From the IMG/VR virus record IMGVR_UViG_3300043119_000116, positions 1-26,354 of that record: DNA of 26,354 nucleotides; one strand, given 5' to 3'. The notes under the pieces are model-generated. The model was not told the origin of the DNA. It ran no database searches and saw only the letters and a program-made list of their open reading frames with translations. A program made the translations under genes and the position numbers. The stretch comes from a virus. Positions 3,201-25,984 of this stretch are shown one piece after another. The stretch's first letter is position 1. Every line of letters starts with the position of its first letter.

Positions 3201-6200
3201 CTCAACTAGACAATGTAGAAGAGCAGATGCAGCGGTTCAATAATGAGTTGTCCTTGCTTGATGGCGCGGTTAACACATTGGATGGACAGATTCGCGTTGC
3301 CCAGTCGCAGTCACGCATGATGGAGTTGGTTGAGAAGTCACCTTCTCTCGAAGAATTGGCAGATTCTAAAGAACAACTGCGTGCGGCACAAACGGAACTT
3401 GCAGATCTGCAGTCACGCATCAGCGCCTTGGAGACCGAAAGGAAAACCAAAGCTGCCGAGGATGCTCGTACAGCCGCCGCAGTTGCCGCTGCTGAAAGAG
3501 CCAAAGCCACTGAAGCACTGGCCACTAAAGCGTCTGAAGCGCCTATTCAAGGTGCACGTAGAGGCGAGCTTGACACTACTGTTGTTCCGGCTATGTCTTG
3601 GGCAGAACGTGTGGCTCGTCGTTGGGCTGAACGCGGCAAGACTCCTATCAGTGCTACTGAAAAGCAAGAGATCCAAGGCAACCCAGAAAGAGTTTTGGGC
3701 GGCTTCAAAGCCATCGTTACCGGTCTTGAGAAAAAGATCAACCAGAACCAGCTGTCCGCTAAGCGTGCGCTTGAGACTGAAGTTGTTGGCCCCGCACTAG
3801 CCGCACGTGACAAGCTAGACGCTCAGTACAAAGCCGCCAAGAGCTCCGCTCAACGTGCCGAAATTGGCACAAAGCTAGATGCCGCTGAGTCAGCACTGAC
3901 CAAAGCCAGAGAAGATGCGCGTAAGCCCCTTGAAGAAATGGTGTGGAAAAGCAAAGCTGGCGACACCAAGAAACTTGCGGAAGCAATGCGTAAAGTCGAT
4001 TGGCTTGAGAGTTTGATTGCCGAAGGCCGTGTTGAGATTGCGCCGCCTAGGAGTGTTCAAGTTATCTCCAAAAAGAACCAAGAGATTCTGACAGCGGAGT
4101 CTAAGGCCAAGGCGCAAGCTCAAGCCGCAGAGCGTCTGAAGTCCCCCGCTACATCTGGCGAAGCTCTGACACGTACCCAAGCTAAGCAAGCCGCGCAGCC
4201 TCAGAAGACTCAGTTTGAAGGCAAAGGCGTGCCCGGCGGTACAGCTACAGAAATCAAACCAGAGCCCAAGCGTTTAACTGGCGCAGAGATTTTGGCGGCT
4301 ATGCAGCAGAGCACTCCGCAACGTCTGAAGAAAGACGTACTGCCGCAACTGGCAGCCACAGCGTCCCAAGGCCCTGCGCTCAAAGAGGAAGTTGATACGG
4401 AACAGAGTGCGGCTGCAATCATGCAGAACATCAGCACAAGCACTAACGACGAGATTAACAGAGCTGTGGCTGAGCGCTTGAAGATGCTGCTTGGCAACAC
4501 TGAAGTTCGTTTGGTAGATGACTTGCGCAGTGATGACGGCCAAGCTGTGTATGGAACTGCTGCGTCTGACGGCTCATTCATTGAACTAGACAAGACCTAT
4601 GGTTTGAATGAGCAAACAGCTTTGCACGAAGGTGTTCACGCCGGTGTTGAGCGCACGCTTAGTTTGCCCGAAGACCAGTTGACCCCTGAGCAGTTGGCTG
4701 CTAAGAGAGAACTTACAGACATCTACAACGCGCTCAAAGAAGACAAGGACATGCCCTATCCTGAGTTGGTGACCAACTTAAGCGAGTTTGCGGCAGAAGC
4801 GTTGACAAGTCCCAAGTTGCGCACCTACATGCAGTCTAAGCCTTGGACGCTTAAATACATGTGGGATGCTTTCAAGAGCGTTATCTTGCGCTTGCTTGGC
4901 GTGAAGACACCTAGCAACATGAGTGAAGCGGCTATTGCGGCTGTCGACCGCATGATGACCAAAGTGCCCCGCGCTACCGAAGCAGACATGACGCTGGACC
5001 AGCCAAGGCTGAACCGTGCGCGTGACTCTGAGTTTGATGACATTGTGGACATCTCCAACAAGATGGTGGCCCGTCAAAAGACTTGGAGCGAAAAGATTAA
5101 GGTCAACGCTACAGGTTTGGCGTTTGAGACACAGTTGGTTGATCGCTTCGCTGGCTTTGAGCGTCTGTCTAAAGTTATGGACAAGCTCAAAGGCATCCAG
5201 ATGATGTACTACTTGCGCATGTATGACCAGCGCATGAACTTTGTGGCGCAGTCTGCGGCTAACGGTGCTCTGCAGCTTGTAGAAAAGGTGCGGGCTGATG
5301 GCCAGAAAGAGTACCTGATTGAGAGCCGCCCCGGTGCAAGCCTGCGTGGTGTGTCCGAGATTCTCAAAGGAGCCTCCGATGCTATGGGCGGTGTCGACAA
5401 TGCCAGCCGTACGTTTACTTCCTACATGGCGGCGCTCCGTGCGAAGCGTGTGGGCTTAGATAAGCTGAACTTCAGCGGCACAATCACTCAAGCAGAACTT
5501 GACCGCGTACTGGCCACAGTCAACGGCAACAAGACAATCAAGGATGTGTTTGAGCGTGCCCGTGAAGAGTACAACACGTACAACAGAGGGCTGGTAAATT
5601 TTGCCGTTTCTGCTGGCGCTATTCGCAAAGCCGATGCAGAAGCGCTGTTAAAAAGCGACGACTACATTCCGTTCTATCGTGAGCGCAACGGCGTTGTTGA
5701 GTTGATGATTGGTGGTGAAAACCCCATCCGTATTGGCAACATCAAAGAGCAGCCCTACTTGCAAGAGTTGGTGGGCGGTGACGCCCCTATCATGGACTTC
5801 ATGGTCAGCTCTGTGCAAAACACCAACATGATGGTGGATATGGCACTGCGCAACTTGGCCACAAAGAACGCTGTGTTTGAGTTGAAGAACATGGACATGG
5901 CAAAAATTACGGACAAGGCTATCTCTGGCCCTGACGTCATCAAGTTTAAGGTGGACGGAGAAGACCGCTTCGCAATGGTTGATACCGATGCTGCCGGAGT
6001 CCCTGCTGACATCTTGGTCAAGGGCATGGAAGGTATCCCAACACAGATGCCGTTTGCCTTGCGTGTACTGGCTGCCCCCGCTTCCTTCTTGCGCAAAGCT
6101 GTGACAGCTACGCCTATATATGCAGCTCGTCAGTTGTTCCGTGACTCGGTGGCTTCCCCCTTGTTGTCTGGCGCTGATTTTGTCCCTGTTATTGGAGCGC

Positions 6201-7558
6201 TTAGACAAATTGGCAGCGCAACCAAAGGCACGCTTGAGAGCCGAGGCATTACCGGCGGGCAGGTGTTCACGGGTGGTGCGGCAGATATTACCGACATCAT
6301 GCGCCGCATCGCCTCTGGCAAGAGCGGCTGGTCTGACTTCGTGTCTAAGGCCGAGAGCATCTCCATGGAAGCTGACGCGCTGACACGCCGTGCCCAGTAC
6401 AACAGCTACATCAAGCAAGGCTTGTCCGAGATGGAAGCCACGTACATGGCGCTTGAGTCAATGAACTTTACCAAGCGCGGTGCGTCTCCTAGCATCCACA
6501 TGGCTAACTCGTTGATCCCGTTCTTTAACGCACAGATTCAAGGTCTGAACGTGCTGTACAAAGCGTTGGCCGGCAAGATGCCTTTCAATGAGCGCTTGAA
6601 GATTCAGGAGAAACTGCTGACCCGTGGCTTGATGATTGCTGCCGGTACGCTTGCGTATGCGGCCATGATGCAGGACGACGAAGCCTACCAGAACGCTACA
6701 CCTGAGCAGAAGTATGGCAACTGGTTTGTGCGTATCCCCGGTGTGGAAGAAGCTATCCGTCTGCCCATCCCATTTGAGATTGGTTACATCTTCAAGGCAT
6801 TGCCCGAAGCGCTGTACAACTCGATGGTCAATGAGCGTGGCGGTGAGCAGGCTGTGCAAGCCTTCCGTCAAATCTTGCTCAACACAATCCCCGGCGGTTC
6901 TTCTTACGGCATCCCACAAGCCATGCGCCCAGCCATCGAAGCTGGCCTTGGCAAGTCGTTCTACACAGGGCGCGACATCATGTCTCCCCACGAGCAGAAG
7001 TTGTTGCCTGAAGCCCAGTTCCGTGAGAACACATCACAGATCGCTAAGACTGTTGGCGCGGCGGCGGGCGTATCCCCGATTGTCCTTGAGCAGTTGGTGC
7101 AGGGCTATACCGGCAGCGTAGGCTTGGCGTTTTTGCAGGCAGTCAGTATGCCGTTTGGTAAGTCCGACTCACCTGAAAAAGCGTTTAAGCGTTTGTCAGA
7201 GATGCCTGTGGTAGGTACTGCGTTCCAGCCGAACGATGCTGGCGGCATTATCAACATGGCTTACGACCGGATGAACGAGTTTTCCAAAGTTAAGTCTACT
7301 GTGGATGATCTGATTGAGCGCGGTGAAAAGGCCAAGGCACTGGAGCTCATCAATACCAAAGCCAATGAGTATGCGGCGGGAGAGATTGCGCACGACTTCA
7401 CATCGACTATGGGAGAGTTGACCCAGTACGAGAGAGCCATCCGTGCATCTAACCTGACCCCTGAGCAAAAGCGTGAACGTCTTGATGAGATTCGCAAGAT
7501 CAAAATCAGGTACGCGGATACGATGCGCGGGGCCGTCGATAAAACCATACCCCAGTAA
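206..7558 (+). CDS. Giant phage polyvalent / internal-virion-type protein with metallopeptidase motif
   Basis: This 2450-residue protein starts at ATG 206, with AGGA at 193-196 as ribosome binding site. In order: a small N-terminal module (about 1-40, PIYSVQGPDGRIYDVEGP); Ala/Gly-rich hydrophobic helices (about 110-310) of the kind seen in membrane-active internal virion proteins; long charged coiled coils (about 310-460, 1000-1130 and 1200-1400); a zinc-metallopeptidase motif HEGVH at 1474-1478 with downstream SEFAAEA (1526-1532) supplying a likely glutamate ligand; a helical core with YIPFYRERN near 1820 and a PIYAARQLFRD segment near 1970; and IPFFNAQIQG at 2104-2113, typical of LPD38. Known biology: phage polyvalent proteins string together peptidase and other effector domains and are thought to enter the cell with the DNA. 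Inference: it is packaged or ejected and may cleave a host or virion protein. The domain order is read by eye, and the middle third has no recognisable enzyme. Confidence 0.93.
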   Translation: MPIYSVQGPDGRIYDVEGPAGASETQIVAFVRANYQQLKPKEGLGAAVGKGLESLISSGRTAVGALTGSAEEAAQEGLERGEKISKKYADQVSLDKVKKAYEERGLLPAAGEAISQIPAAIAEQAPNLAATFGTARAGAALGSFAGPVGTVVGGLAGAAVPSLFQQFGGNVERQAAEQKARGEEIKIDTGAAGAAAVPQAALDVAGTLIPLGGRLVSKLTGIPEKALVGRSAAEATKLADERLLATLAKGTAVGALAEIPTEITQQMLERAQAGLSLSDADALKEYGETAYQVGLLAPIGAAGRLSERAGARGEVMARKQEEARVQREEEAKQKAEADAKDAEAKAAEDVRKQTPAYAIEFGQQYDDLLAQYQEKRKGLKTPGKDATPEEKAEYAERQAEVKALYKQLNEQTPEYRRTKGLRAEAAAKAAEDAEKARIAGMSPEEYALEQANAQKQVEGVSGTAKPTDVGIESPFAPVPGEADKYIQERMALAKQQVPEQGINGISDYLMSNPLMARHLVETRTPLPGLKAAEQRAVLGGLELQLKELEKKRAAAGRAATGVAQQRLSTVEAEEQAALDAQRADDARLAEETAKRDELAPEVAALQGMANKPSPMIDQFSLFEGQPNVQGSAAMGQAKQQLLGEDVTATADENAADVKRDLRRVPGAEFKLRARKEGAAPVTRDEVADRLNRVLSTYELSPEASAFLRRAEQVMPQAGQDYFDLLDAQLDKIESGQEGVPRKGESRTLTAKTAPTTAEQQAQASTTPGTEGAKIDMRERRDAQPGQPSPLKTPIAQPAEAERSAGLRGKAEQAVRTPANKPTTLRGASAKAADLSLQGDLEPLVRQSERAADEQAGQLGLFPEEEKKLGYVKPDREAFNRFMRSPFVNKLRKDLRANEETLKQAARIPALKNRINELTSKIIGVLSDFQEYKTADKLVRANKDITVSERGLDQLKGAMTKNVVDRMELAGAIESLQQQRAQFLEESQKTGIAPDAETIAQLDNVEEQMQRFNNELSLLDGAVNTLDGQIRVAQSQSRMMELVEKSPSLEELADSKEQLRAAQTELADLQSRISALETERKTKAAEDARTAAAVAAAERAKATEALATKASEAPIQGARRGELDTTVVPAMSWAERVARRWAERGKTPISATEKQEIQGNPERVLGGFKAIVTGLEKKINQNQLSAKRALETEVVGPALAARDKLDAQYKAAKSSAQRAEIGTKLDAAESALTKAREDARKPLEEMVWKSKAGDTKKLAEAMRKVDWLESLIAEGRVEIAPPRSVQVISKKNQEILTAESKAKAQAQAAERLKSPATSGEALTRTQAKQAAQPQKTQFEGKGVPGGTATEIKPEPKRLTGAEILAAMQQSTPQRLKKDVLPQLAATASQGPALKEEVDTEQSAAAIMQNISTSTNDEINRAVAERLKMLLGNTEVRLVDDLRSDDGQAVYGTAASDGSFIELDKTYGLNEQTALHEGVHAGVERTLSLPEDQLTPEQLAAKRELTDIYNALKEDKDMPYPELVTNLSEFAAEALTSPKLRTYMQSKPWTLKYMWDAFKSVILRLLGVKTPSNMSEAAIAAVDRMMTKVPRATEADMTLDQPRLNRARDSEFDDIVDISNKMVARQKTWSEKIKVNATGLAFETQLVDRFAGFERLSKVMDKLKGIQMMYYLRMYDQRMNFVAQSAANGALQLVEKVRADGQKEYLIESRPGASLRGVSEILKGASDAMGGVDNASRTFTSYMAALRAKRVGLDKLNFSGTITQAELDRVLATVNGNKTIKDVFERAREEYNTYNRGLVNFAVSAGAIRKADAEALLKSDDYIPFYRERNGVVELMIGGENPIRIGNIKEQPYLQELVGGDAPIMDFMVSSVQNTNMMVDMALRNLATKNAVFELKNMDMAKITDKAISGPDVIKFKVDGEDRFAMVDTDAAGVPADILVKGMEGIPTQMPFALRVLAAPASFLRKAVTATPIYAARQLFRDSVASPLLSGADFVPVIGALRQIGSATKGTLESRGITGGQVFTGGAADITDIMRRIASGKSGWSDFVSKAESISMEADALTRRAQYNSYIKQGLSEMEATYMALESMNFTKRGASPSIHMANSLIPFFNAQIQGLNVLYKALAGKMPFNERLKIQEKLLTRGLMIAAGTLAYAAMMQDDEAYQNATPEQKYGNWFVRIPGVEEAIRLPIPFEIGYIFKALPEALYNSMVNERGGEQAVQAFRQILLNTIPGGSSYGIPQAMRPAIEAGLGKSFYTGRDIMSPHEQKLLPEAQFRENTSQIAKTVGAAAGVSPIVLEQLVQGYTGSVGLAFLQAVSMPFGKSDSPEKAFKRLSEMPVVGTAFQPNDAGGIINMAYDRMNEFSKVKSTVDDLIERGEKAKALELINTKANEYAAGEIAHDFTSTMGELTQYERAIRASNLTPEQKRERLDEIRKIKIRYADTMRGAVDKTIPQ

Positions 7559-7721
7559 GACCGTTAAGGATGCCCGCTTCAGCGCGGGCGTCTACGATTT
7601 TGCTGAGTACGGCTTTCTTCAGACCTAGTTCACGCACAGCATCCGTGTCAAGGCAGGGGACAAAGAACCCCTGCCCCTTTTCAACTTTCGTCCACGGGAA
7701 CTGGATTGAGGATACTCTCAT
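7506..7721 (-). CDS. Possible small phage protein at the convergent junction
   Basis: This 71-residue ORF starts at ATG 7721 inside the 3' end of the primase gene, in another frame. GGAAG (complement of 7728-7732) lies six bases upstream as ribosome binding site. Its stop at 7506 lies inside the 3' end of the rightward giant gene, so it overlaps coding sequence on both sides. The residues look protein-like: GFFVPCLDT, then an Ala/Leu/Lys-rich helix, then NGLTGVWFYRRP. This resembles a short phage ORF type I have seen, which I cannot name. Against it, the two hairpins at the junction lie within it. The alternative is non-coding terminator DNA. Confidence 0.5.
   Translation of the reverse strand: MRVSSIQFPWTKVEKGQGFFVPCLDTDAVRELGLKKAVLSKIVDARAEAGILNGLTGVWFYRRPRASYPRT
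7572..7589. terminator. GC-rich hairpin at the convergent junction
   Basis: GCCCGC (7572-7577) and GCGGGC (7584-7589) form a 6-bp stem with a 6-nt loop, 14 bases after the stop of the giant rightward gene. No strong T tract follows at once; a short run of four Ts comes about nine bases later. It may be a weak terminator or RNA-stabilising hairpin. It also lies within a leftward ORF (7506-7721), where it encodes ARAEAG, so the symmetry could be incidental. Confidence 0.3.
7652..7681 (+). terminator. Probable rho-independent terminator of the rightward module
   Basis: GGCAGGGG (7652-7659) pairs perfectly with CCCCTGCC (7668-7675) around an 8-nt loop. The sequence then runs CC and four Ts to 7681. 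This is the expected place for termination of rightward transcription, at the meeting point of two convergent modules. The last T is the first base of the complementary stop codon of the leftward primase gene. The same bases would encode GQGFFVPCL in the small leftward ORF 7506-7721, so the region may do two jobs. Confidence 0.55.
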
Positions 7722-10578
7722 CTAAGTCTTCCACTTTGCGCCTGATCTTCATCACAGCCACCCGCATCTGGGGACCTTTGGTCTTTGCCATCATGTCCTT
7801 CTTGACCAACTCAACCTGAAAGATGTCCTGAAGCTGGCGCTTGAATGAAGTGTAGCCAAAGCTCATGGATGCGCAATACGCCTTGAGTAAGTTTTCTTCA
7901 ATAAAGTAGTCAATGTACTTGGGCGTCAACTCATGCTCAACCCTGCCAAGCACCTTGTTACGGGTGATGGAGATGTCGATCTCCTTGCCGCTACCGAGCT
8001 CTGCCATCAAGCCGCCAGTGCTAGGACGGATCACAACGAAGTTGCCGTAGCTGTCGCGGGTGTAGGCATTGAGTACGTCTTCCGCTGTGCGCACACTGCT
8101 CTTCATGCTGGCACGCATGTTCTCCACAACCTTCTTGAAGGCATTGATGATGGGGCGGTAAGGAATCTCAATCACGCCAAGCTCTTTGAACGCTTTGAGT
8201 GCACATACAGTAGCGCCGATACCTGCCATCCAGAAGCGCTCATCGTTGGTAGCGTTGAACTCTTTGTACATGGCGGCCACAGCACTGCTAACCAACTCAG
8301 GCAGACCCGCGACATTGTCGGCAAGGTACTGCGCCAACTGATAGCCAGCTACGCCATAGTTGTGTTGCAAAGACTTGATGATCTCAATCTCATGGGGCTC
8401 CCACGTCAACTCGTCCTCGAGCACAAACTCCAGCAAGCGGCGCAGTTCACCCTCCGATGAGTGGTTGCGGCCACCTGTCAGATAGTCCACGATGTGCGTG
8501 TTGGAAGACATGATCGCGTTGGTCATCCATGTGGACAAGTTCAAACGCTCTTTGTTGGAGCCGGACTCCATACGCTCCTTGCCTCGGCCCTCAGTCATGT
8601 CGAGGAGGAATTCAGGCAACCACTCGAAGTCCTTGCGGTTCTTCGCGGTGATCTCATCGGTGATGAGTGGATGGCTGTTGAGCAAACCAAGGCGTTGTTG
8701 CATGGCCACAGGGGATGTGCTCTTGCCTGTGCGGTAGTGTGTTGGGTGACCCCAGACAGATGCGGCGGCTTCCAAGGACAGTGACTTGCCTGTACCGGAC
8801 TCAGTTGATGCGCAGTGGTACGTCATGCCGTAGATACCGGTGAAGCGCATAAATGGCGCTCCAGCACCGACAAGCAAAATGGCCAAGTGGTTCCACATCT
8901 TCTTGGCAATCAGCATGTTGACAAACGCTCTCCAGTTGTCCATCGTCCCCTTGGGCTCGGTGTTGACTGTAATGTTCTCCAGACCCGGCATCGGCACTTT
9001 GATTGGTGGCATGCCCTTGGAGAAGATACGCCCTGCATACACGTATGTATTGTCTGGTTGCCAGCCGTAGCTGTCGGGGACCTTGACGGCCACTTTGTTT
9101 GTACTAGAGTCTTCCACGCATGCCCTCACATATTCAAATAGGTTTTTGTCATTGTTGGAGCCAAAGGCTGCCACCACGTTCTGACTTGCCAGTGCTTTGA
9201 CTGTCTCGTCCTTACTGACCACGGCCTTCTGCGCCATCGTCACGGTAACTGCGCCTTCAGGTTTGAGCGCAACCATGTGCACAGTGTGATCGTTGTTGCT
9301 GTTGAGGATGTCCACTACAAATAGCTCGTAGGGCAACAACATGATTTGTTTCTTGGTCTTAGCCCCATCATCGTCTTCAACTGTGCGCTCCATGAAAATG
9401 CCGCCATTGGTGCCATAGGCATAACCACGGGGCGGTGTTGGGCGCATAACCTTGAGCGTCTCTTTCGCTGTGACTGGGCTGGCACTTGCAATTTCTATTT
9501 CAATTTCTTTCTCTTGCACATCAACTTCGATCTCCCGACCGAGGAGCAGCGGGTTGGTGATCTTGCCCCAATGTGTACATGATGGGCATATACCGGGGTT
9601 CTCGCTGTCCATTTTGATGCAGGGGTACGGACCCTTGATGCTTTGCAGCTTCTGGTTCATACGCTCTGGCTCGTACGGGTGCAGCTTACTAAGCCATGCT
9701 GACGCCTTGTTGCCATCCTCACAGACCTTAGTCCATGACAGCAGACCACGCCAGAGCGGCTCCATGCCTTCTTCGGTTGCGTGTTCAACGTAGTGCGCAA
9801 GCTGGCTGCAACCCCGATCGTTTTGCGTGGCCAGCCAAATTGGTTTGAACTTGGTCACGCTGTTTTCAAAGAGCTTGACACTGGTTGCCGTGGCAGAAGA
9901 AGCCGCCGAAGGACGGGAGCCGGGCAAGTCCAGCTTGGGCACTTGCGCCTCATACACTGAGCCGACAAGCTTGTCCCTGATGGCCGTGGCCATAACATCG
10001 AAGTCAAACGTGTCGCCCTCAGACAGTATGCGCACGGGGCGCGGCGTCGCGTATTTCTTCTTGAAGTTGGTCGTGCCGGGGACACGCAAAACACGTGACG
10101 CATCAGCCGTCACAGTCATGTCGATCGCCAAGCTCTCTTGCTTACACAGACGCTTGAAGTTCTCAGCCACAGGTTTCCATGACTCAATAGGCTGTGACTG
10201 GGTCAGCGGCCAGTAGCAGTGCAACCCACCACCAGAGGCCACCACGTAGGGCGTACCCAAGGCATCGAGGCCAGTCTTCTCCAAAAACGCATTGAGCGCA
10301 AGTGCGGCGTCTTTTCTCGTAGCGTAGCCGTCCATGTCGATGAACAGGGACTTCACATACTGGGCGTTGGCCGCAGTCCGGTTGTCTTCCGTGCCAAAGG
10401 TAGCCAAGGCAAAGTAAACATCTTGCTTGCTGTCATGCCAACGTGTAGTCGGCATTGTTGTCTGATCGAGCGCATCCACAAACACGTGCTCTTTCATCTT
10501 CGTCGAAAGTTCTGCTACGCAGTACCGACCATATTCTGGCGGCGGCAGAACAACCGCTAAAAAATCAAGCGGAGTCAT
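7681..10578 (-). CDS. Bifunctional primase-helicase (AEP primase fused to DUF927-like helicase)
   Basis: This 965-residue replication protein should prime and unwind phage DNA. The N-terminal part (about 70-200) carries archaeo-eukaryotic primase motifs: LFIDMDGY (78-85, metal-binding D81 and D83), GGGLHCYW (116-123), AIDMT (D153), and RVLRVPGTTNFKKK (162-175). A Cys group (C320, C331, C334) may bind zinc in the linker. The C-terminal half is a P-loop ATPase with Walker A STESGTGKS (591-599) and a Walker B-like LITDE (638-642), as in the DUF927/superfamily 3-type helicases of mobile elements. The start ATG has AAGGA six bases upstream. It is the last large gene of the leftward module, and 17 bp separate it from the small gene before it. 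I am sure of a primase-helicase; the exact helicase clade is less certain. Confidence 0.88.
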   Translation of the reverse strand: MTPLDFLAVVLPPPEYGRYCVAELSTKMKEHVFVDALDQTTMPTTRWHDSKQDVYFALATFGTEDNRTAANAQYVKSLFIDMDGYATRKDAALALNAFLEKTGLDALGTPYVVASGGGLHCYWPLTQSQPIESWKPVAENFKRLCKQESLAIDMTVTADASRVLRVPGTTNFKKKYATPRPVRILSEGDTFDFDVMATAIRDKLVGSVYEAQVPKLDLPGSRPSAASSATATSVKLFENSVTKFKPIWLATQNDRGCSQLAHYVEHATEEGMEPLWRGLLSWTKVCEDGNKASAWLSKLHPYEPERMNQKLQSIKGPYPCIKMDSENPGICPSCTHWGKITNPLLLGREIEVDVQEKEIEIEIASASPVTAKETLKVMRPTPPRGYAYGTNGGIFMERTVEDDDGAKTKKQIMLLPYELFVVDILNSNNDHTVHMVALKPEGAVTVTMAQKAVVSKDETVKALASQNVVAAFGSNNDKNLFEYVRACVEDSSTNKVAVKVPDSYGWQPDNTYVYAGRIFSKGMPPIKVPMPGLENITVNTEPKGTMDNWRAFVNMLIAKKMWNHLAILLVGAGAPFMRFTGIYGMTYHCASTESGTGKSLSLEAAASVWGHPTHYRTGKSTSPVAMQQRLGLLNSHPLITDEITAKNRKDFEWLPEFLLDMTEGRGKERMESGSNKERLNLSTWMTNAIMSSNTHIVDYLTGGRNHSSEGELRRLLEFVLEDELTWEPHEIEIIKSLQHNYGVAGYQLAQYLADNVAGLPELVSSAVAAMYKEFNATNDERFWMAGIGATVCALKAFKELGVIEIPYRPIINAFKKVVENMRASMKSSVRTAEDVLNAYTRDSYGNFVVIRPSTGGLMAELGSGKEIDISITRNKVLGRVEHELTPKYIDYFIEENLLKAYCASMSFGYTSFKRQLQDIFQVELVKKDMMAKTKGPQMRVAVMKIRRKVEDLDESILNPVPVDES

Positions 10579-12588: not shown

Positions 12589-14148
12589 TCAAGATTTAAT
12601 TTCAGTTTCGAACATGTCAGTCAGGAGTAAGTTGTCACTAACTTTCCCTTCCAACGCTTTAAACATCTTCTTTTCGATCGGGCTACTCTGAATGTGAATC
12701 ACAGTAACTTTGTCGGAGTCCTGCCCCTTGCGGTCAGCACGGGCACAGCACTGGATGTACTGCTCAACGCTCATGAGAGGGCCGTAGAACACCACGGTAT
12801 CAGCGGCAGTCAGCGTAATGCCATGGGCAGAAGCGGCGGGCTGCATCACCAACACACGGGGGTTTGGCTCGGTCTGGAAGCGGTTGATAGTTATACCGCG
12901 CTTGCTTGGCGTGATGTCTCCGTGAATGCACTCGTTGACAATGCCCTTCTTCGTGAGGTAGTTGCTGATCGTGTCGATGGTGCTACGGAACAGGGCGAAG
13001 ATGATGACCTTGCGATCAGTCTCTTCCAAGATTTCCTCAAGCACAGCAAGGCGCGGCGCTGAGTCGAACTCAACAACTTCCCTGTCGTCTGTGTATGCCG
13101 CACCGCAACTGATTTGCAATAGCTTGGATACGCCAGCGGCGGCGTTGACTGCCGTGATGGTCTCTCCTGCAGCTTGCACCAGCATGCGCTCCTTGAGCAG
13201 GGAGTAGTACTTGTTCTGCTGTGGAGTCATGGGCACCTCACGCACCATCGTGATGACAGGCGGTAAGTCAAGGCACTGTGCTTTGGTAAAGCGTATCGCA
13301 GGCTGGAGCGCCTCGTGCACCTTGTCTTTGGCATCCGCCTTAGCCGCCCACTTGAACATCGTTACCTTGTTCATCACCTGATCGCGCCATGCCGTGAAGA
13401 ACTTGGGCACACCCTCGGGGTTAACCAACTTGGCTAGACCGTACGCATCGACAGGCGACTGTGACGCCGGCGTTCCCGTCATCATCCACAGGTATGTGTT
13501 GGGGTGGAGGATGGAGTTAAGCGATTTCCATCTGCGTGTGGTGACGGTCTTGTATGCGTTGGCTTCGTCAACAATCACGAGGTCAAAGCGGCCATCGTTC
13601 TTCACTTCGTCTGCGATGAGGTTCAGCCCTTCGTAGTTGGTGATGACGATCTCGTAGTCACGCTGGATCATCTCAATGCGGCGACTAGCCTGCGCATGGT
13701 GCGCGATAACGGCCGAGCGATGTATCACGCTGTTGTTGATGTCACCCATCCATGCGCTGTGCATGATCGACAGGGGGCACAGGATGAGAACCCTACGCAC
13801 CTTCTTGAGCTTCATCAAGTAGTCAGCCGCCCACAATGCTGAGAGCGTCTTGCCCGTGCCGGGTTCTGAAAACACGAAGGCTCTGCGATACATCGTGAGG
13901 AATGCCGCAGTCTCGATCTGGTGAGCCATGGGCTTGTAACGCCCCGGCCAGTCATAGCGCCTAGTGATAGGCGATGGCACATCTTTGACACCTAGGTTAC
14001 GCAAGACCCGCGCTTCGTCAAGACCCCAGTAAACAGCGACATCGTAGCCACCGTCTGCACGGGGCATTGCCTTGCTCTTAGGGATGATTGAGTACTTGTG
14101 CGGGTTCCTTGTGCGTAAGATAAGTGCTTTGTCTTCTACGATTTCCAT
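12589..14148 (-). CDS. SNF2-family DEAD/DEAH-box helicase
   Basis: This 519-residue superfamily 2 ATPase has Q-like YKPMAHQ (71-77), Walker A SEPGTGKT (94-101), the Walker B/DExx box VIVDEANAYK (191-200), motif III TGTPA (224-228), and motif VI QCCARADRKGQ (466-476) with its arginine fingers. These are SNF2-type motifs; the usual DEAH is DEAN here. Such phage proteins translocate on duplex DNA and are thought to remodel forks or assist recombination. The start ATG is preceded by GGAG within GGAGAAGCA. The length matches compact single-module phage SNF2 proteins with no extra accessory domain. It follows two HNH-type genes and precedes the coiled-coil gene. Confidence 0.92.
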   Translation of the reverse strand: MEIVEDKALILRTRNPHKYSIIPKSKAMPRADGGYDVAVYWGLDEARVLRNLGVKDVPSPITRRYDWPGRYKPMAHQIETAAFLTMYRRAFVFSEPGTGKTLSALWAADYLMKLKKVRRVLILCPLSIMHSAWMGDINNSVIHRSAVIAHHAQASRRIEMIQRDYEIVITNYEGLNLIADEVKNDGRFDLVIVDEANAYKTVTTRRWKSLNSILHPNTYLWMMTGTPASQSPVDAYGLAKLVNPEGVPKFFTAWRDQVMNKVTMFKWAAKADAKDKVHEALQPAIRFTKAQCLDLPPVITMVREVPMTPQQNKYYSLLKERMLVQAAGETITAVNAAAGVSKLLQISCGAAYTDDREVVEFDSAPRLAVLEEILEETDRKVIIFALFRSTIDTISNYLTKKGIVNECIHGDITPSKRGITINRFQTEPNPRVLVMQPAASAHGITLTAADTVVFYGPLMSVEQYIQCCARADRKGQDSDKVTVIHIQSSPIEKKMFKALEGKVSDNLLLTDMFETEIKS

Positions 14149-15931: not shown

Positions 15932-17917
15932 TTAATTTTTAGCTAACCCATACCTACGGTGTGCACCACCGTCAGCGTCCAATGGAATGCCCGGCATGTA
16001 AGGCGGCTCCATAGTCATCTGTGCCAAGACCCAAGTCTTAGCTTCCGCTACTTCAGCGTCAGGAACCACAACGATCTGCTCGTCATGTACTGTCCCCGCC
16101 ACAAAGTATCTCTTTGCAGTACGCACCATCCCATCAGTCATCACGCATCTCGCTACGCCCTGCGTGACATTGTTGGTTATTTTTCCTGCATATATCTTAG
16201 TACGATCTGGCCCATATGTCCACTCTGTTTGATCTTTATTTGTAGCCGGATCTTTGAAGCGCCTGATGTTGAGGTCTGGATACAACAGCTTCATGCCGGA
16301 CGGCAGCTCAATCTCCCCCTTGCGGTACGTCAAACACTTGTGCTTGTACTCCTTGCCCTTGTACAGCGACTCGTGGATAAGCTCAGTGTTGAGGCTCCAG
16401 AAGTCAACCACAGGCGTGGCCGTTGCCCTGTACTTGTCGATGATGGCTTTGGCCGCGAGACAATGAATGACTAGCTCCTTGGTTGTACAGGTGTGCGGTA
16501 TGGATTGGAGCTTCTCAACGTTCACTTCCCAGTCGAGGAACTTCTTGGCGGCTTGTTGCGTGACCCCCAGTTTCTTTGCAAAGGCAAGGTCGTACCGCTG
16601 AGGCGGCGCCCCGAGGAACCCTGTAAGTAGTTGGGACGCAAAGGCAGCCCAACCGAGTCCATAGCCGCACCCAAGCAACGCGCTCTTTGCCGACTGCCGG
16701 AGATCAGGATGGGACTCTTTGGTGAGATTGGGGATGTTGAACATCTGCGCACCGAACGCGGCATAAGGGTCACCCCCAGCCCTGAAGATGTCAAGCATAT
16801 CTGTATAGTCAGAAAGCCACGCAAGGACTCGCGGCTCAATCTGTGACAGATCGCCCACGACGAGTTGGTGGCCAACGGGAGCCATAATCGCTTTGCGTAA
16901 GAACGAGCCTCGCTTGAGGTTCTGCATGTTGATGGCCGAGCCTTTCGACGCTGTCCAGCGGCCTGTCTGTGCACCGTAGTACGAAAGCGGAACTGGAAGC
17001 GAGCCACGTTGGCTGATGTCCAAGAAGCGCTGTGCACGGGTGCGCTCAGTGGTAGATTTAACCTTAAGACGCGCTTCACAAAGAAGGGCAACGTCCTCAC
17101 GTTCACCATTGAGTAGCGCTTGAAATAGGGCATCGTTTTTAGCGAGGGCGAGTGTCTCTTTCCCAGTCGTCTTACTTGTCTTGGTTGGCGGAACCACATT
17201 GAGTTTCTCAAGTAGTGCAGCAAACTGCGGGTTCGACGCCAGAGCAGTTTCGTCCACGCCGAGTTTCTGTAATAGGGCTTCACGTTTTTCCTTTTCGTCT
17301 AGTATGGCGTCGGTCAGCATGTTGGGGTCAAGCTCAAGGCATGCACGGGTGTACATCTTGAGGGTCATGTCGATGAGCCTGAGTTCTTTAGCGGGATACC
17401 CAACAGCCAAGCGGGTAAAGATTTGCTCGCACAGGTACACATCATGCGCACAGTACTCGGCTAGTTCTTTCTCCATGGCAGGGGTGAGTTCTGTGTAACC
17501 GTTGGTGTTGTACACAGCGTTGCCCTTGGGTGGCAGGCCGAAGTCCTGCGCCAGCTTCATCAATGAGTTTCCCACCTCGACGCCCCGTAGAGCACGACCC
17601 ATAGAAAGAGAATCAAAAATAAAGCATGGTCGCCAGTTACATATCCACTCCAGTATAGAAACATCGAACTGAGCGTTATGAGCCAGAACAGCAGTGGTCT
17701 TAGGATCATAGCAAGCAAGGATGCGCGGGAGCTCATCTCCTCTGTACCACTGGGTTGGCTTGTCTGATCCGTACTCATGGATGCAGGCTCCAAATGCTTT
17801 GAATCGTGGGTCACGTATGTACTCCTCGGTTGTCATCTTGCTCAGGGTGTAACCTTCCTTGGTGTCCCAGTAGGTCTCGAAGTCGATCGTGATGATCTGT
17901 TTATATGGGGCGCTCAC
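15932..17917 (-). CDS. polA: Family A DNA polymerase with 3'-5' exonuclease
   Basis: This 661-residue replicative polymerase is complete. The exonuclease domain has DFETYW (D12, E14), HNAQFD (N81, D85) and YCAHD (Y155, D159). The polymerase domain has motif A GDLSQIEPR (D356), motif B RQSAKSALLGCGYG (R407, K411, Y419) and motif C VHDE (H611, D612, E613). There is no 5' nuclease domain, as in T7 gp5. Aligned to E. coli Pol I, position 762 (Phe in E. coli) falls on L415, a variant linked in viral surveys to temperate or slower phages. The start is GTG at 17917, with GAGG upstream and a GTGA overlap with the 56-residue gene before it. The stretch between motifs B and C is long (about 190 residues). 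Confidence 0.95.
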   Translation of the reverse strand: MSAPYKQIITIDFETYWDTKEGYTLSKMTTEEYIRDPRFKAFGACIHEYGSDKPTQWYRGDELPRILACYDPKTTAVLAHNAQFDVSILEWICNWRPCFIFDSLSMGRALRGVEVGNSLMKLAQDFGLPPKGNAVYNTNGYTELTPAMEKELAEYCAHDVYLCEQIFTRLAVGYPAKELRLIDMTLKMYTRACLELDPNMLTDAILDEKEKREALLQKLGVDETALASNPQFAALLEKLNVVPPTKTSKTTGKETLALAKNDALFQALLNGEREDVALLCEARLKVKSTTERTRAQRFLDISQRGSLPVPLSYYGAQTGRWTASKGSAINMQNLKRGSFLRKAIMAPVGHQLVVGDLSQIEPRVLAWLSDYTDMLDIFRAGGDPYAAFGAQMFNIPNLTKESHPDLRQSAKSALLGCGYGLGWAAFASQLLTGFLGAPPQRYDLAFAKKLGVTQQAAKKFLDWEVNVEKLQSIPHTCTTKELVIHCLAAKAIIDKYRATATPVVDFWSLNTELIHESLYKGKEYKHKCLTYRKGEIELPSGMKLLYPDLNIRRFKDPATNKDQTEWTYGPDRTKIYAGKITNNVTQGVARCVMTDGMVRTAKRYFVAGTVHDEQIVVVPDAEVAEAKTWVLAQMTMEPPYMPGIPLDADGGAHRRYGLAKN

Positions 17918-20814: not shown

Positions 20815-21197
20815 ACACCTTCCTTTAATTGCGTCGCCAGCGATTCACACTCATCAATGCAGAAGTCCAGTGATCTAATCACATCACCTTCGAACCGCAA
20901 CGACAACGCGCTTATGCTTTTGTACTCGGGGGCCATCAACTCAGGGTCACGTGCATCGCCAAGGTGTGCGCAGTCATAGCCGAACCACCACAAGTCGTCA
21001 GCTTCAACAGGGTATTTGCCGTTGCCCCCTGCAAAGGTCAGGCCGCCATGTACATCAACGTCAGCATCATCATACGCAACGCCGTAAAGCTTATGCCCTA
21101 TCGGTATTGCCACGTACCCACAGCGGTGTCCCATGGGGGTAGCGCACACCACAGCGCGGTAGCCTGCCTTTGTTACCCAATCTTTTTCTGTAGTCAT
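20811..21197 (-). CDS. Conserved phage protein of unknown function
   Basis: This 128-residue protein has a recognisable conserved layout: HRCGYVAIPIGHKLYG (24-39), VDVHGGLTFAGG and WWFGYDCAHLGD, then a helical tail. Proteins with this His/Cys/Trp pattern occur in many phages, including actinobacteriophages, with no known function. The conserved His and Cys residues suggest a metal site or an enzyme. The start overlaps the glutaredoxin stop (ATGA), and its own stop overlaps the next start. Confidence 0.82.
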   Translation of the reverse strand: MTTEKDWVTKAGYRAVVCATPMGHRCGYVAIPIGHKLYGVAYDDADVDVHGGLTFAGGNGKYPVEADDLWWFGYDCAHLGDARDPELMAPEYKSISALSLRFEGDVIRSLDFCIDECESLATQLKEGV

Positions 21198-21445
21198 AGT
21201 GACACAGCCCCCAATTGTTTAAGCGCGGCTTGCAGTCCAGCCAAGCCACCCACGCGTTGGTCATTGAAGAATATCTGCGGCATCTGACGCGCATCAGGGA
21301 ACTCTTTGAGCAGGTTGGCAAGGCGGTCGCCCACCTCGACGTCCACATCCGAATACTTCAGCCCAAAGCTGTCCAATACCATCTTAGCTGTCGTACAGTT
21401 GGGGCAGTTGGCCTTGGTGTACATGGTGATGTTTATTTCTTTCAT
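21194..21445 (-). CDS. grx: Glutaredoxin
   Basis: This 83-residue thiol oxidoreductase has CPNC at 14-17 (YTKANCPNCTTAK), the cis-proline loop RQMPQIFF (P56) and the glutathione-binding GG (RVGGLAGL). The size is typical for a class I glutaredoxin such as T4 NrdC, which donates electrons to ribonucleotide reductase. No reductase gene is in the window, so it may serve a host or distant phage enzyme. The gene is coupled on both sides by ATGA overlaps, with GAGAG five bases before its ATG. Confidence 0.92.
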   Translation of the reverse strand: MKEINITMYTKANCPNCTTAKMVLDSFGLKYSDVDVEVGDRLANLLKEFPDARQMPQIFFNDQRVGGLAGLQAALKQLGAVSL

Positions 21446-23063: not shown

Positions 23064-24245
23064 TTATGCTTCACAGTGAATCGCATCGAACAATGTGCAC
23101 AGCACAGTTGATGCATCGTAGGCACGAGCCATTTGTTTGGCTTCTTCTAGTAGGTCATCGGTCAGCTTGCGCTTGTTCAGGAACTTGACCGCCATGTCTG
23201 GGTCTTCGGGGTACACACACTCAGCGATCATGTTGATAAGGTCATCGTAGTAGCCAGCTTGCGCATCGTAAATAGCGTCGTACAGCATCTCGGTTGCGAA
23301 GTACTCGTCATCGTCTGGCCAGTTGTATAGGGCTTCCTTGCCATCGGTGGGCTTGCCGTCCTTGTCATCCTTGTACACGCCATAGCCTGACCACCATGCG
23401 GTGTCGTACTTACTGTCGTACTTGTATGTCTTGTAGTCATCGACAGTGGGGTCACGATCAGTAGGCAGTGCGTCCCAGTCAACCTTGGATGCAGCAATGG
23501 CAAGCGCGGCGAAGTGCACGATGTCAAGGTTCTCACGATCGCCGTGCTCGTTGTAGTAGCCCACGCTGATGTTGGTGCACTCGGGGATGATGTCGGTGAA
23601 CTCAGCGGTGTCTGTGTACACACCCGTGTCGTCTGGCGAGTACATGAGGTTGTCATTGTGCTCATTGAGCGCAGATGCAAGGGTCTGACAGAAGCTGTCG
23701 GATGCACAGCGCCCCATACCTTGATGACTGATGACGCTGTCGATACCGCGCCTGTCGAACGCAATGGCACGATTGAACTGCTTGAGTAAGTCCTTGTTGT
23801 TAGCCTCGATGAACTTGGCACCGATACCGCCGCACTCCTCGCCTTGGCTGAAGATGTAGTAGCCTGCGACACCTGAGTGGATCAAGTGCATGAGCATGGC
23901 CACACCTGCACCATCGTCAGCACCGAGAGGAGCGCCATCTGCATGCCAGTGGGTCTGTGTCTTCTTGATCTTGTTGGGGCCTGTGTCTCTGTGTACTGTG
24001 TCCACATGGGCGATGAACAGCGTCTTGCTGCCCTTGACTCGGTTGTCCACGTGCAGGTTGCCCGCGCCATCCACGGATGTGAAAGACTTAAGCTCGGCAG
24101 GTAGGTTGACGAACAGCCATGATGTGAAGTCGGATACCTCATGTGTATTGTGTGGACGTTTGTGTGAGAGTGCCCGTTCAAGTGTGCGCACGATGATGGG
24201 CTGTTGTGTGGCTTGTGTGGTTTGTTTTGATTTGCGTTTAGTCAT
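23064..24245 (-). CDS. Di-zinc exopeptidase (M20/M28/M42-type)
   Basis: This 393-residue protein shows a complete co-catalytic zinc site: IAHVDTVH (H80 ligand, D82 catalytic), LGADDGAGVAM (D110/D111 bridging region), FSQGEECGGIGA (E136 general base, E137 ligand), AIAFDRRG (D164) and SVGYYNEHGDRENLD (H234). The family comprises aminopeptidases and dipeptidases or deacylases that hydrolyse peptide or amide bonds. Residues 255-393 are an acidic, Tyr/Asp-rich extension not usual for the family. There is no signal peptide, so it should act in the cytoplasm. ATG 24245 has AAGGAG seven bases upstream, 11 bp after the Cys-rich 575-residue gene. The substrate is unknown. Confidence 0.88.
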   Translation of the reverse strand: MTKRKSKQTTQATQQPIIVRTLERALSHKRPHNTHEVSDFTSWLFVNLPAELKSFTSVDGAGNLHVDNRVKGSKTLFIAHVDTVHRDTGPNKIKKTQTHWHADGAPLGADDGAGVAMLMHLIHSGVAGYYIFSQGEECGGIGAKFIEANNKDLLKQFNRAIAFDRRGIDSVISHQGMGRCASDSFCQTLASALNEHNDNLMYSPDDTGVYTDTAEFTDIIPECTNISVGYYNEHGDRENLDIVHFAALAIAASKVDWDALPTDRDPTVDDYKTYKYDSKYDTAWWSGYGVYKDDKDGKPTDGKEALYNWPDDDEYFATEMLYDAIYDAQAGYYDDLINMIAECVYPEDPDMAVKFLNKRKLTDDLLEEAKQMARAYDASTVLCTLFDAIHCEA

Positions 24246-24256
24246 GATTGATCTCC

Positions 24257-25984
24257 TTAGATTGTGTCGGTTGCTTCGAGTGTCAGGTTAGCGTTGATAG
24301 ACGCTACGTACATCAGCTCTGTGCTGATTAGTCTGCGCATGTTGATGCGTGTGTTGTCAAGGCCAAAGACAGCGATGTGATGTGTGGGCACATCACGATG
24401 AGCGAACAGCTTGTTGCCGTCATGCAGTATGGTCATGCTGAAGCGAACGATGTCCCCCTCAATGCCGTAGTCCTCGAACAGCGCTAGCTGATCTAGCATC
24501 GACATGGTGAGCAGCGTTGCGTCTGGCTTAGTAGCGACAGGGGCAACAGCCACGGCTGTGTCGCCATCCTCGTCCTCATCGTCAGTAGCAGGGGCATGGT
24601 CAGGGTGATACTTGCATCCATCAACCTCAACGTACTCAGTGTCATCGGTGTACCAGTTGCACGACTCCTCGCACTGCCAGCCGTCCTCGGTCAAGCCGTA
24701 CTCATCGGTGTCCTCGAACCTGCAGATGCGGTCATCGTCAATCGAATACCAGTCACCATTGATCTCGATGGCTTCCTCCATCTTCTCGTACTCGCCGTTC
24801 TCAAGCGACACGATCTCGTTGTCACCGAGGTAGTCCTCGTCATAGTAATCATTGCATGAGTCCACATACACCGCATTGTCCTCGTGTACATAGTACTGAT
24901 TGCCCCGCCTGCCGTACACATAGCGGTAGTTGTCTCGGCATGACTCACAGACCTGAGCGTCCTCGTGCCTACCGACCCAGTAGCCGTCATCGTTGCTGGT
25001 GCTGTCACCGCAGTCATCGCAGTCGAAGTAGTCATCGTCCTCACAGGTCGGTATACCTCCCGTCTGATCGCAGATGTACTCACCATCGCTGTCGATGACA
25101 AAGCATTTGTTGGTGCTGTCAACACTCACACGCTTCTCACCGCCGTCAAGGTAGGGCGCAAGGAAATGCTCGCCCGTTGGGTGATACGCCAGTCGCTCGC
25201 CGTCCTCCCAGTAGGCGTGCTTGGTGTAGCCCTGCTCCTTGAGCCAGTTCTCCATGCCGTTGTCTGTCTCGCTGTACCCGCCGTTGCTGGCAGGGCGAGC
25301 GTACGTCCTGACATAGTACTTCTTGCCATCTGTGGGCTGAGTCATACACAGCGCACGGCCAACAGTCTCATCGCCCTCGATGCGAACAGCCATGTGCCAG
25401 CCATACTTGGGATCGTACGCCTCGTATGGGTGACGGGTCACGCCATCAGAACAGCGGATGCCCCTGTCATCACGCCAGACCATGCAAGAGCCTGGCCCCT
25501 TGTGCAGATGGTAGATCATCTCGGCTGTGGTGTGCACGAACTTGAACGAGGCGGCTGTGCCGTGACGGGCAACAAGATCGCGGATGGTGTGGTCAGGCAG
25601 ATTGAAGTGGCGCGTCAGGTACTTGCCCACCGAGGTGACAGTCTGCAGGTTCTTCTTGCCCTTGGCCTCGTTCTGGGTGTAGGCGATGCGGGTGCGGTCG
25701 CCTTGGGATATGTGTGGGTGCTCAAGCAGCAGTTGATGCCAGTCGATGGGACGCACGAGCTTGATGGCCGCCTCGGTGGCGGGGTGTACTGGGTAGCTGT
25801 CGAACTCACGAATGATCCAGTACCGCTCTTCACGCTTGGCACTGATCTCCTGCATCTCGTCCTCATCGTCCGAGAGATGCCATGCCCGTCTGAGGACGCG
25901 GTCGACATTGCGTATCGCAGTGGCCGCTTGAGCCATGATGGACACCATGTCTTGCCAGTCGTATGTGTTGTTAGATGTAGTCAT
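24257..25984 (-). CDS. Cys/Asp/Tyr-rich conserved phage protein of unknown function
   Basis: This 575-residue protein has AAGGAG before ATG 25984. Residues 1-160 are helical; 160-290 form a conserved beta-rich unit (SCMVWRDDRGIRCSDG, HPYEAYDPKYGWHMAVRIEG, a RTYARP motif, YLDGG). Residues 300-460 are an acidic aromatic region with cysteines C305, C314, C322, C325 (CDDC), C346, C349 (CESC), C377, C421, C438, C442 and C457, embedded in repeated Asp/Tyr motifs such as DYYDEDYLGDNE. This suggests several zinc knuckles or a beta-repeat surface. A linker (465-490) and a 90-residue C-terminal domain follow. Similar proteins exist in many unrelated phages without known function. It lies next to the exopeptidase, downstream of a dyad site at 26011. 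Confidence 0.85.
   Translation of the reverse strand: MTTSNNTYDWQDMVSIMAQAATAIRNVDRVLRRAWHLSDDEDEMQEISAKREERYWIIREFDSYPVHPATEAAIKLVRPIDWHQLLLEHPHISQGDRTRIAYTQNEAKGKKNLQTVTSVGKYLTRHFNLPDHTIRDLVARHGTAASFKFVHTTAEMIYHLHKGPGSCMVWRDDRGIRCSDGVTRHPYEAYDPKYGWHMAVRIEGDETVGRALCMTQPTDGKKYYVRTYARPASNGGYSETDNGMENWLKEQGYTKHAYWEDGERLAYHPTGEHFLAPYLDGGEKRVSVDSTNKCFVIDSDGEYICDQTGGIPTCEDDDYFDCDDCGDSTSNDDGYWVGRHEDAQVCESCRDNYRYVYGRRGNQYYVHEDNAVYVDSCNDYYDEDYLGDNEIVSLENGEYEKMEEAIEINGDWYSIDDDRICRFEDTDEYGLTEDGWQCEESCNWYTDDTEYVEVDGCKYHPDHAPATDDEDEDGDTAVAVAPVATKPDATLLTMSMLDQLALFEDYGIEGDIVRFSMTILHDGNKLFAHRDVPTHHIAVFGLDNTRINMRRLISTELMYVASINANLTLEATDTI

Follow-up and report, generated by a model that had tools for sequence, protein, structure and literature searches.

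The window analyzed here, a 26,354-base virus record from IMG/VR, carries two neighboring genes on its minus strand. The peptidase open reading frame (ORF; 23064..24245, minus strand) starts with ATG and encodes 393 amino acids, and its coordinates agree with those of an earlier reading made from the DNA sequence alone (the sequence-only reading). A partner gene of 575 amino acids (24257..25984, minus strand) precedes it on the same strand, with a gap of eleven bases between the end of the partner gene and the peptidase start codon. The Shine-Dalgarno sequence of the peptidase, AAGGAG (24253..24258, minus strand), was read directly and overlaps the TAA stop codon of the partner (24257-24259). 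Because the ribosome-binding site of one gene overlaps the stop codon of the other, both proteins are probably translated from a single transcript. Around the pair, patterns of promoters and terminators were no more frequent than in shuffled sequence, and no RNA elements or tRNA were found in the window.

The pair is located ahead of replication genes encoded on the same strand: a family A DNA polymerase (15932-17917, minus strand), a SNF2-type helicase (12589-14148, minus strand), and a DUF927 protein resembling primase-helicases (7681-10578, minus strand). The sequence-only reading had assigned the peptidase to an early region, and the gene order agrees with this assignment, the label "early" being read from position. 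The homologous peptidase of the Autographiviridae belongs to a set of six conserved ORFs that precede the primase, and in PhiM1-like phages, a 2018 paper lists the peptidase among six conserved early ORFs (PMC6115819). Elsewhere in the window, a single 2450-amino-acid ORF (206-7558, plus strand) with an LPD38 domain near its C terminus encodes a very large polyvalent protein, and a small protein that has a thioredoxin domain (glutaredoxin-like) and a CPNC motif is encoded at 21194-21445 (minus strand). The closest relatives of the DNA polymerase are found in Rhizobium phages RHph_TM and Pseudomonas phage KPP25 (~30-33% identity); these phages, with genomes of 61-64 kb, are absent among the peptidase matches listed.

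The catalytic domain of the peptidase (residues ~20-262; 23460..24188, minus strand) contains the clan MH ligand set H80-x-D82, D110, E136 (general base), E137, D164, and H234. None of the seven di-zinc residues varied among the 279 relatives that exceed 250 amino acids. D110 is contained in two of the three alignment-based retrieval patterns, so its invariance is partly selected for; the other six residues are contained in none of these patterns and are unaffected. The window protein matched PHROG 4191 "peptidase" (E = 4.6e-69; protein residues 19-343 against positions 6-329 of the 342-position profile). By tblastn, relatives were detected in at least 364 phage records, mostly of Klebsiella, Pectobacterium, and Vibrio phages, many of them already labeled peptidase, Zn-peptidase, or aminopeptidase. 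The family profile also matched PepT-type structures (E = 4.7e-19; PDB 3rza and 3gb0). An AlphaFold model built from 96 sequences reached a mean pLDDT of 89.4, and its nearest solved structures were PepT (3gb0, E = 9.4e-11), TET/M42 enzymes, PahZ2, carboxypeptidase G2 (CPG2), and the DapE catalytic domain. The predicted fold, modeled without metal, resembles that of di-zinc enzymes. The sequence-only reading had stated that the metal and catalytic positions are complete and that the enzyme should be active, and had named ligand loss in relatives as one observation that would speak against it. The complete set is confirmed and no ligand was lost in the 279 relatives; activity is likely, given the invariant catalytic residues and a model that matches di-metal peptidases. 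We conclude that the window peptidase is likely to be a clan-MH di-zinc hydrolase and is probably active. The same reading had regarded an exopeptidase as exceptional for a phage, an idea that the named PHROG, the number of phage records with relatives, and the listing in the 2018 paper do not support. The family is thus already known in phages, and what is new is its placement as a lid-less relative of PepT.

This placement comes from a comparison of the peptidase family profile with six Escherichia coli enzymes. PepD and PepT matched best, followed by Iap (M28), FrvX, and YpdE (M42), and DapE was unmatched by the profile. The PepT match consists of two blocks, in which profile positions 61-134 correspond to PepT residues 71-181 and positions 211-244 to residues 367-400, the second block being weak (domain E = 0.097). 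Between the blocks, 185 PepT residues (182-366) stand against 76 profile positions, which indicates that the M20 lid/dimerization domain is missing from the phage family. In the window peptidase itself, the distance from D164 to H234 is 70 residues, with no inserted lid, and that from H80 to D110 is 30 residues, the M42 insert after the first ligand being absent. A weak Pfam M28 match was detected in 89 of 96 family members. The window protein falls below both the Pfam M28 gathering score (18.8 versus 21.3 bits) and the cutoff of the NCBIfam PepT-like model TIGR01883 (20.5 versus 274.25 bits) and is therefore filed in neither. The ligand layout that had been described broadly as M20/M28/M42 is present and can be narrowed to a nearest relationship with PepT and PepD, both the M20 lid and the M42 insert being absent. 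A lid-less, PepT-related di-zinc peptidase or amidohydrolase is the most economical description of the window enzyme.

The catalytic domain is followed by a C-terminal extension (residues ~263-393; 23064..23459, minus strand) of ~131 amino acids, which contains 31 D/E versus 14 K/R residues. In the model, the extension comprises an acidic linker of low pLDDT (~280-312) and then a confidently predicted helical part (~313-390). It could be aligned in close relatives only and not in distant ones, so conservation of the enzyme does not extend to it. Described previously as a 140-residue acidic extension, it does include an acidic linker; the length, the helical part, and the lack of alignment in distant relatives depart from that description. 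Long N- or C-terminal extensions were also observed in peptidase paralogues of 508-673 amino acids at six loci in huge phages, and no adjacent same-strand gene of the partner family was found for these paralogues.

As a tblastn query, the window partner retrieved one phage record only. The aligned neighbor genes of peptidases in other phages form one divergent family, referred to here as the SCM family. Residues S165, C166, M167, P185, R209, Y227, P276, and D279 (numbered without the initial Met) were invariant in 15 diverse members, and S-C, Y190, R210, P277, and D280 (numbered with Met) were invariant across 87 members. The conserved core of the window protein (residues ~141-290; 25115..25564, minus strand) contains S166-C167-M168, Y190, R210, R226, Y228, P277, Y278, and D280 and is GNAT-like in the model. 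A Cys/Tyr/Asp-rich beta-repeat region (residues ~320-460; 24605..25027, minus strand) carries CxxC pairs at 322 and 346; partners in huge phages have no CxxC pair and lack the Cys-rich repeats. The sequence-only reading had pointed to a Cys/Tyr/Asp-rich neighbor and had taken the adjacency to be meaningful. The neighbor is indeed present (24257-25984) and its family is conserved beside the peptidase, but the Cys-rich part is lineage specific and the conserved part is another domain, the SCM core.

The partner families, PHROG 6980 and PHROG 13313, are annotated as having unknown function. Searches by sequence of Pfam, NCBIfam, and the PDB gave nothing useful for the partner, with no match to GNAT, FemAB, or any other Pfam family, and querying viral contigs with single sequences brought up almost no new SCM proteins. 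The AlphaFold model of the partner (mean pLDDT 90.4, pTM 0.54) is confident for the domains and not for their arrangement. In a Foldseek search of the PDB, nearly all of the 50 matches listed were GNAT folds, with FemX first (E = 0.013, probability 0.99); the others listed included aminoglycoside acetyltransferases, RimI-like enzymes, A-PGS, MprF, and an aminoacyl-tRNA-dependent peptide synthase. None of the matches listed fell below an E value of 0.001, and the rmsd was poor. The nearest viral structures were uncharacterized homologues. On the strength of the model, we consider it rather probable that the partner has a GNAT-like fold. The acetyl-CoA loop Q/R-x-x-G-x-G/A is not conserved, any such string occurring in 17 of 87 SCM members. 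A classical acetyltransferase was rejected on this ground, and the partner might resemble GNAT proteins without being catalytic. The chance that it is a catalytic transferase appears evenly balanced.

Several other identities for the pair were considered. In a viral fold library, the partner weakly matched phage proteins named "Amidoligase enzyme," "LIM domain," and "metallothionein," matches that may stem from its Cys-rich repeats. Amidoligase (PF12224) is not part of the module, since nothing exceeded the cutoff in 31 module-bearing records, in which one sub-threshold match was detected. A known anti-phage defense or counter-defense system was rejected, as PADLOC matched neither window protein nor any of four homologues.

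The SCM family adjoins the peptidase in Autographiviridae, in the window's 62-kb phage group, in huge phages, in Cellulophaga and Thermus phages, and on plasmids, in either gene order. In the first locus sets, the partner was adjacent and on the same strand at 106 of 120 peptidase loci, and 10 of the other 14 had no room upstream. With a combined profile, 151 of 283 peptidase ORFs had a same-strand partner next to them, which lay upstream in 130 cases and downstream in 21. Within the window's own group, once identical peptidases had been removed, 69 had the partner upstream, 3 did not, and 8 had no upstream sequence. Peptidases without an adjacent partner occurred mostly in sets rich in huge phages, whose genomes hold several paralogous copies. 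At the level of whole genomes, 31 of 33 peptidase-bearing records contained at least one SCM gene; the exceptions were a partial contig and a Bacillus phage, in whose record no SCM gene was detectable. The peptidase of phage P23-45 has no adjacent partner, and the sole SCM gene of that genome lies elsewhere. Peptidase and SCM numbers by host genus, compared as counts of phage records rather than as accession lists, nearly coincided, at 230 and 231 for Klebsiella, 42 and 42 for Vibrio, 51 and 51 for Pectobacterium, and 10 and 10 for Escherichia.

Further occurrences extend this range. The Cellulophaga and Thermus loci were reached via an SCM protein of a huge phage, not via the peptidase, and both show the order opposite to that of the window: in Cellulophaga phage phi38:1, gp038 "peptidase" is followed by the SCM gene gp037, and in Thermus phage TSP4, a "metal-dependent hydrolase" is followed by the SCM gene. 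A scan of genomes for cellular relatives outside mobile elements returned 15 matches, several with an adjacent partner and some on short contigs; some of the 15 may be prophages. The pair was present on Limnohabitans, Sphingopyxis, and Methylobacterium plasmids and also in Mesorhizobium, with two tandem pairs on Methylobacterium plasmid pVL1_2 (locus L295, 1-7614) and two on a Mesorhizobium contig (locus L283, 5535-12284). In the 735-kb phage LR756501.1, an SCM-SCM-SCM-peptidase-SCM array lies on one strand (locus L299, 2458-9100), and the whole record contains 15 SCM and 5 peptidase genes. Upstream of the pair in huge phage LR756502.1, ORFs that resemble, by eye, a metallopeptidase, a nucleic acid ligase, and a Nudix protein were observed (locus L034, 4657-6638). 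In Pseudomonas phage Ep4, the annotated peptidase and partner overlap by 241 bases (locus L031, 4692-4932), and one annotated end may be wrong. Linkage between the peptidase and SCM families is strong across elements of very different kinds. Without a functional link, it would be hard to account for pairing in both orders, across phages of Proteobacteria, Bacteroidota, and Deinococcota as well as plasmids, and this pairing suggests that the two proteins work together. We found no literature describing the pair, in a searched collection that is thin in subscription journals.

From the zinc site present in the sequence, the pairing, and the conserved candidate active site, we infer a function for the partner, a donor, a target, and a direction of reaction. 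The two proteins would form a module of writer and eraser, with the SCM protein, as a GNAT-fold transferase, adding an acyl or aminoacyl group that the zinc enzyme removes. Like FemX-type enzymes, the SCM protein would work without acetyl-CoA and would attach this group to an amine of a target from the host or the phage, and the lid-less PepT-type enzyme would hydrolyze the amide so made. Co-translation and a position ahead of the replication genes point to action early in infection, where the pair might, for example, commandeer or shield a component of the host or the phage. We advance this module tentatively, at somewhat less than an even chance. In its favor, we count the invariant zinc ligands, the fold matches of the peptidase, the pairing and co-occurrence of the two families, and the Foldseek GNAT matches, led by FemX and including A-PGS, MprF, and the peptide synthase. 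Against it, we count that the GNAT fold comes from one predicted model with a best E value of 0.013 and no sequence match, that the acetyl-CoA loop is not conserved, and that some peptidases (the huge-phage paralogues and those of P23-45 and the Bacillus phage) have no adjacent partner.

In a rival explanation, the peptidase, the only clearly enzymatic member of the pair, is an effector that trims N-terminal residues from, or cleaves an amide in, a host or defense-derived peptide or signal. The SCM protein would then be a non-catalytic adaptor, inhibitor, or targeting subunit, whose zinc-ribbon-like repeats bind the target. The peptidase can occur without an adjacent SCM gene, such repeats are found in some lineages, the partner has no CoA loop, and the 15 SCM genes to 5 peptidase genes of LR756501 fit many adaptors serving few enzymes. 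The strict invariance of S-C-M, R, and D in very divergent partners nevertheless resembles that of an active site rather than that of a surface for binding, and we consider this explanation unlikely.

Less likely again is a toxin-antidote or counter-defense pair, in which the SCM protein modifies an essential component, such as aminoacyl-tRNA or a ribosomal protein, and the peptidase reverses the modification. GNAT toxins are known to act on aminoacyl-tRNA. Paired genes on plasmids and tandem copies would fit such a pair, as would the finding that almost every SCM-bearing record found has a peptidase while the peptidase can stand apart. However, PADLOC gave no match, and addiction modules are seldom found in lytic phages such as Drulisvirus. 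When hypothetical proteins of Drulisvirus fHe-Kpn01 were screened for toxicity, three toxic proteins were reported, of 69, 182, and 146 amino acids; none is of the partner's size, although the screened set may not include the partner (PMC7291057).

Nutrient salvage, in which an intracellular aminopeptidase recycles amino acids from degraded host proteins and its neighbor is unrelated, draws on the complete catalytic set and on the closest cellular relatives being the di- and tripeptidases PepD and PepT, but it is the least probable of these explanations, leaving the conserved partner, both gene orders, the plasmids, and the spread of paralogues in huge phages unexplained when hosts already possess such peptidases. 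As candidate roles, the sequence-only reading had suggested amino-acid recycling, hydrolysis of a defense-linked or signaling amide, and release of a host modification. The conserved GNAT-like partner favors acyl or aminoacyl turnover over plain recycling.

In its strongest form, which we regard as doubtful, the preferred module of transferase and hydrolase would be an unrecognized system of phages and plasmids for the reversible attachment of an amino acid or acyl group to a component of the host or the phage. It would be distributed among plasmids and among phages ranging from 43-kb podoviruses to one of 735 kb, with the SCM proteins as a new class of acetyl-CoA-independent GNAT-fold transferases alongside a lid-less PepT-type hydrolase. 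A "peptidase" of no known role occurs in at least 364 sequenced phages, including many that infect Klebsiella. Seen as half of a conserved pair, which is also found on plasmids and has multiplied in huge phages, this unexplained annotation becomes a testable two-component system. For the partner (PHROG 6980 and 13313), the model provides a candidate fold, and the alignments a candidate active site that is conserved.

Among known enzymes, PepT and PepD (M20B and M20C) share the HVDT and GADD motifs with the phage family, and the end motif of PepT, TD-x12-N-x3-G-x4-H-x3-E, recurs with identical spacing; the lid/dimerization domain, residues 182-366 in PepT, is absent from the phage family. M28 aminopeptidases share the single-domain, lid-less layout, but the match to Iap is weaker than those to PepT or PepD. 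In the M42 enzyme FrvX, ~109 residues lie between the matched blocks, versus 26 profile positions in the phage family. The partner model shares the strand-helix order b1-a1-a2-b2-b3-b4-a3 with FemX and other GNAT-fold aminoacyl transferases; it differs from FemX in having a single degenerate domain and the invariant SCM motif, with no sequence-level match and an E value of 0.013. The closest counterparts of the window pair are the PHROG 4191 members of Autographiviridae (Drulisvirus KpV71 gp12, Phimunavirus Peat1 gp09, and Maculvirus OWB gp07). These belong to a different phage group and differ from the window peptidase at the C-terminal end, with 34-42% identity over the catalytic domain. They have the same ligands and the partner directly upstream, and the placement of the window pair before the replication genes matches that of its homologues in this family.
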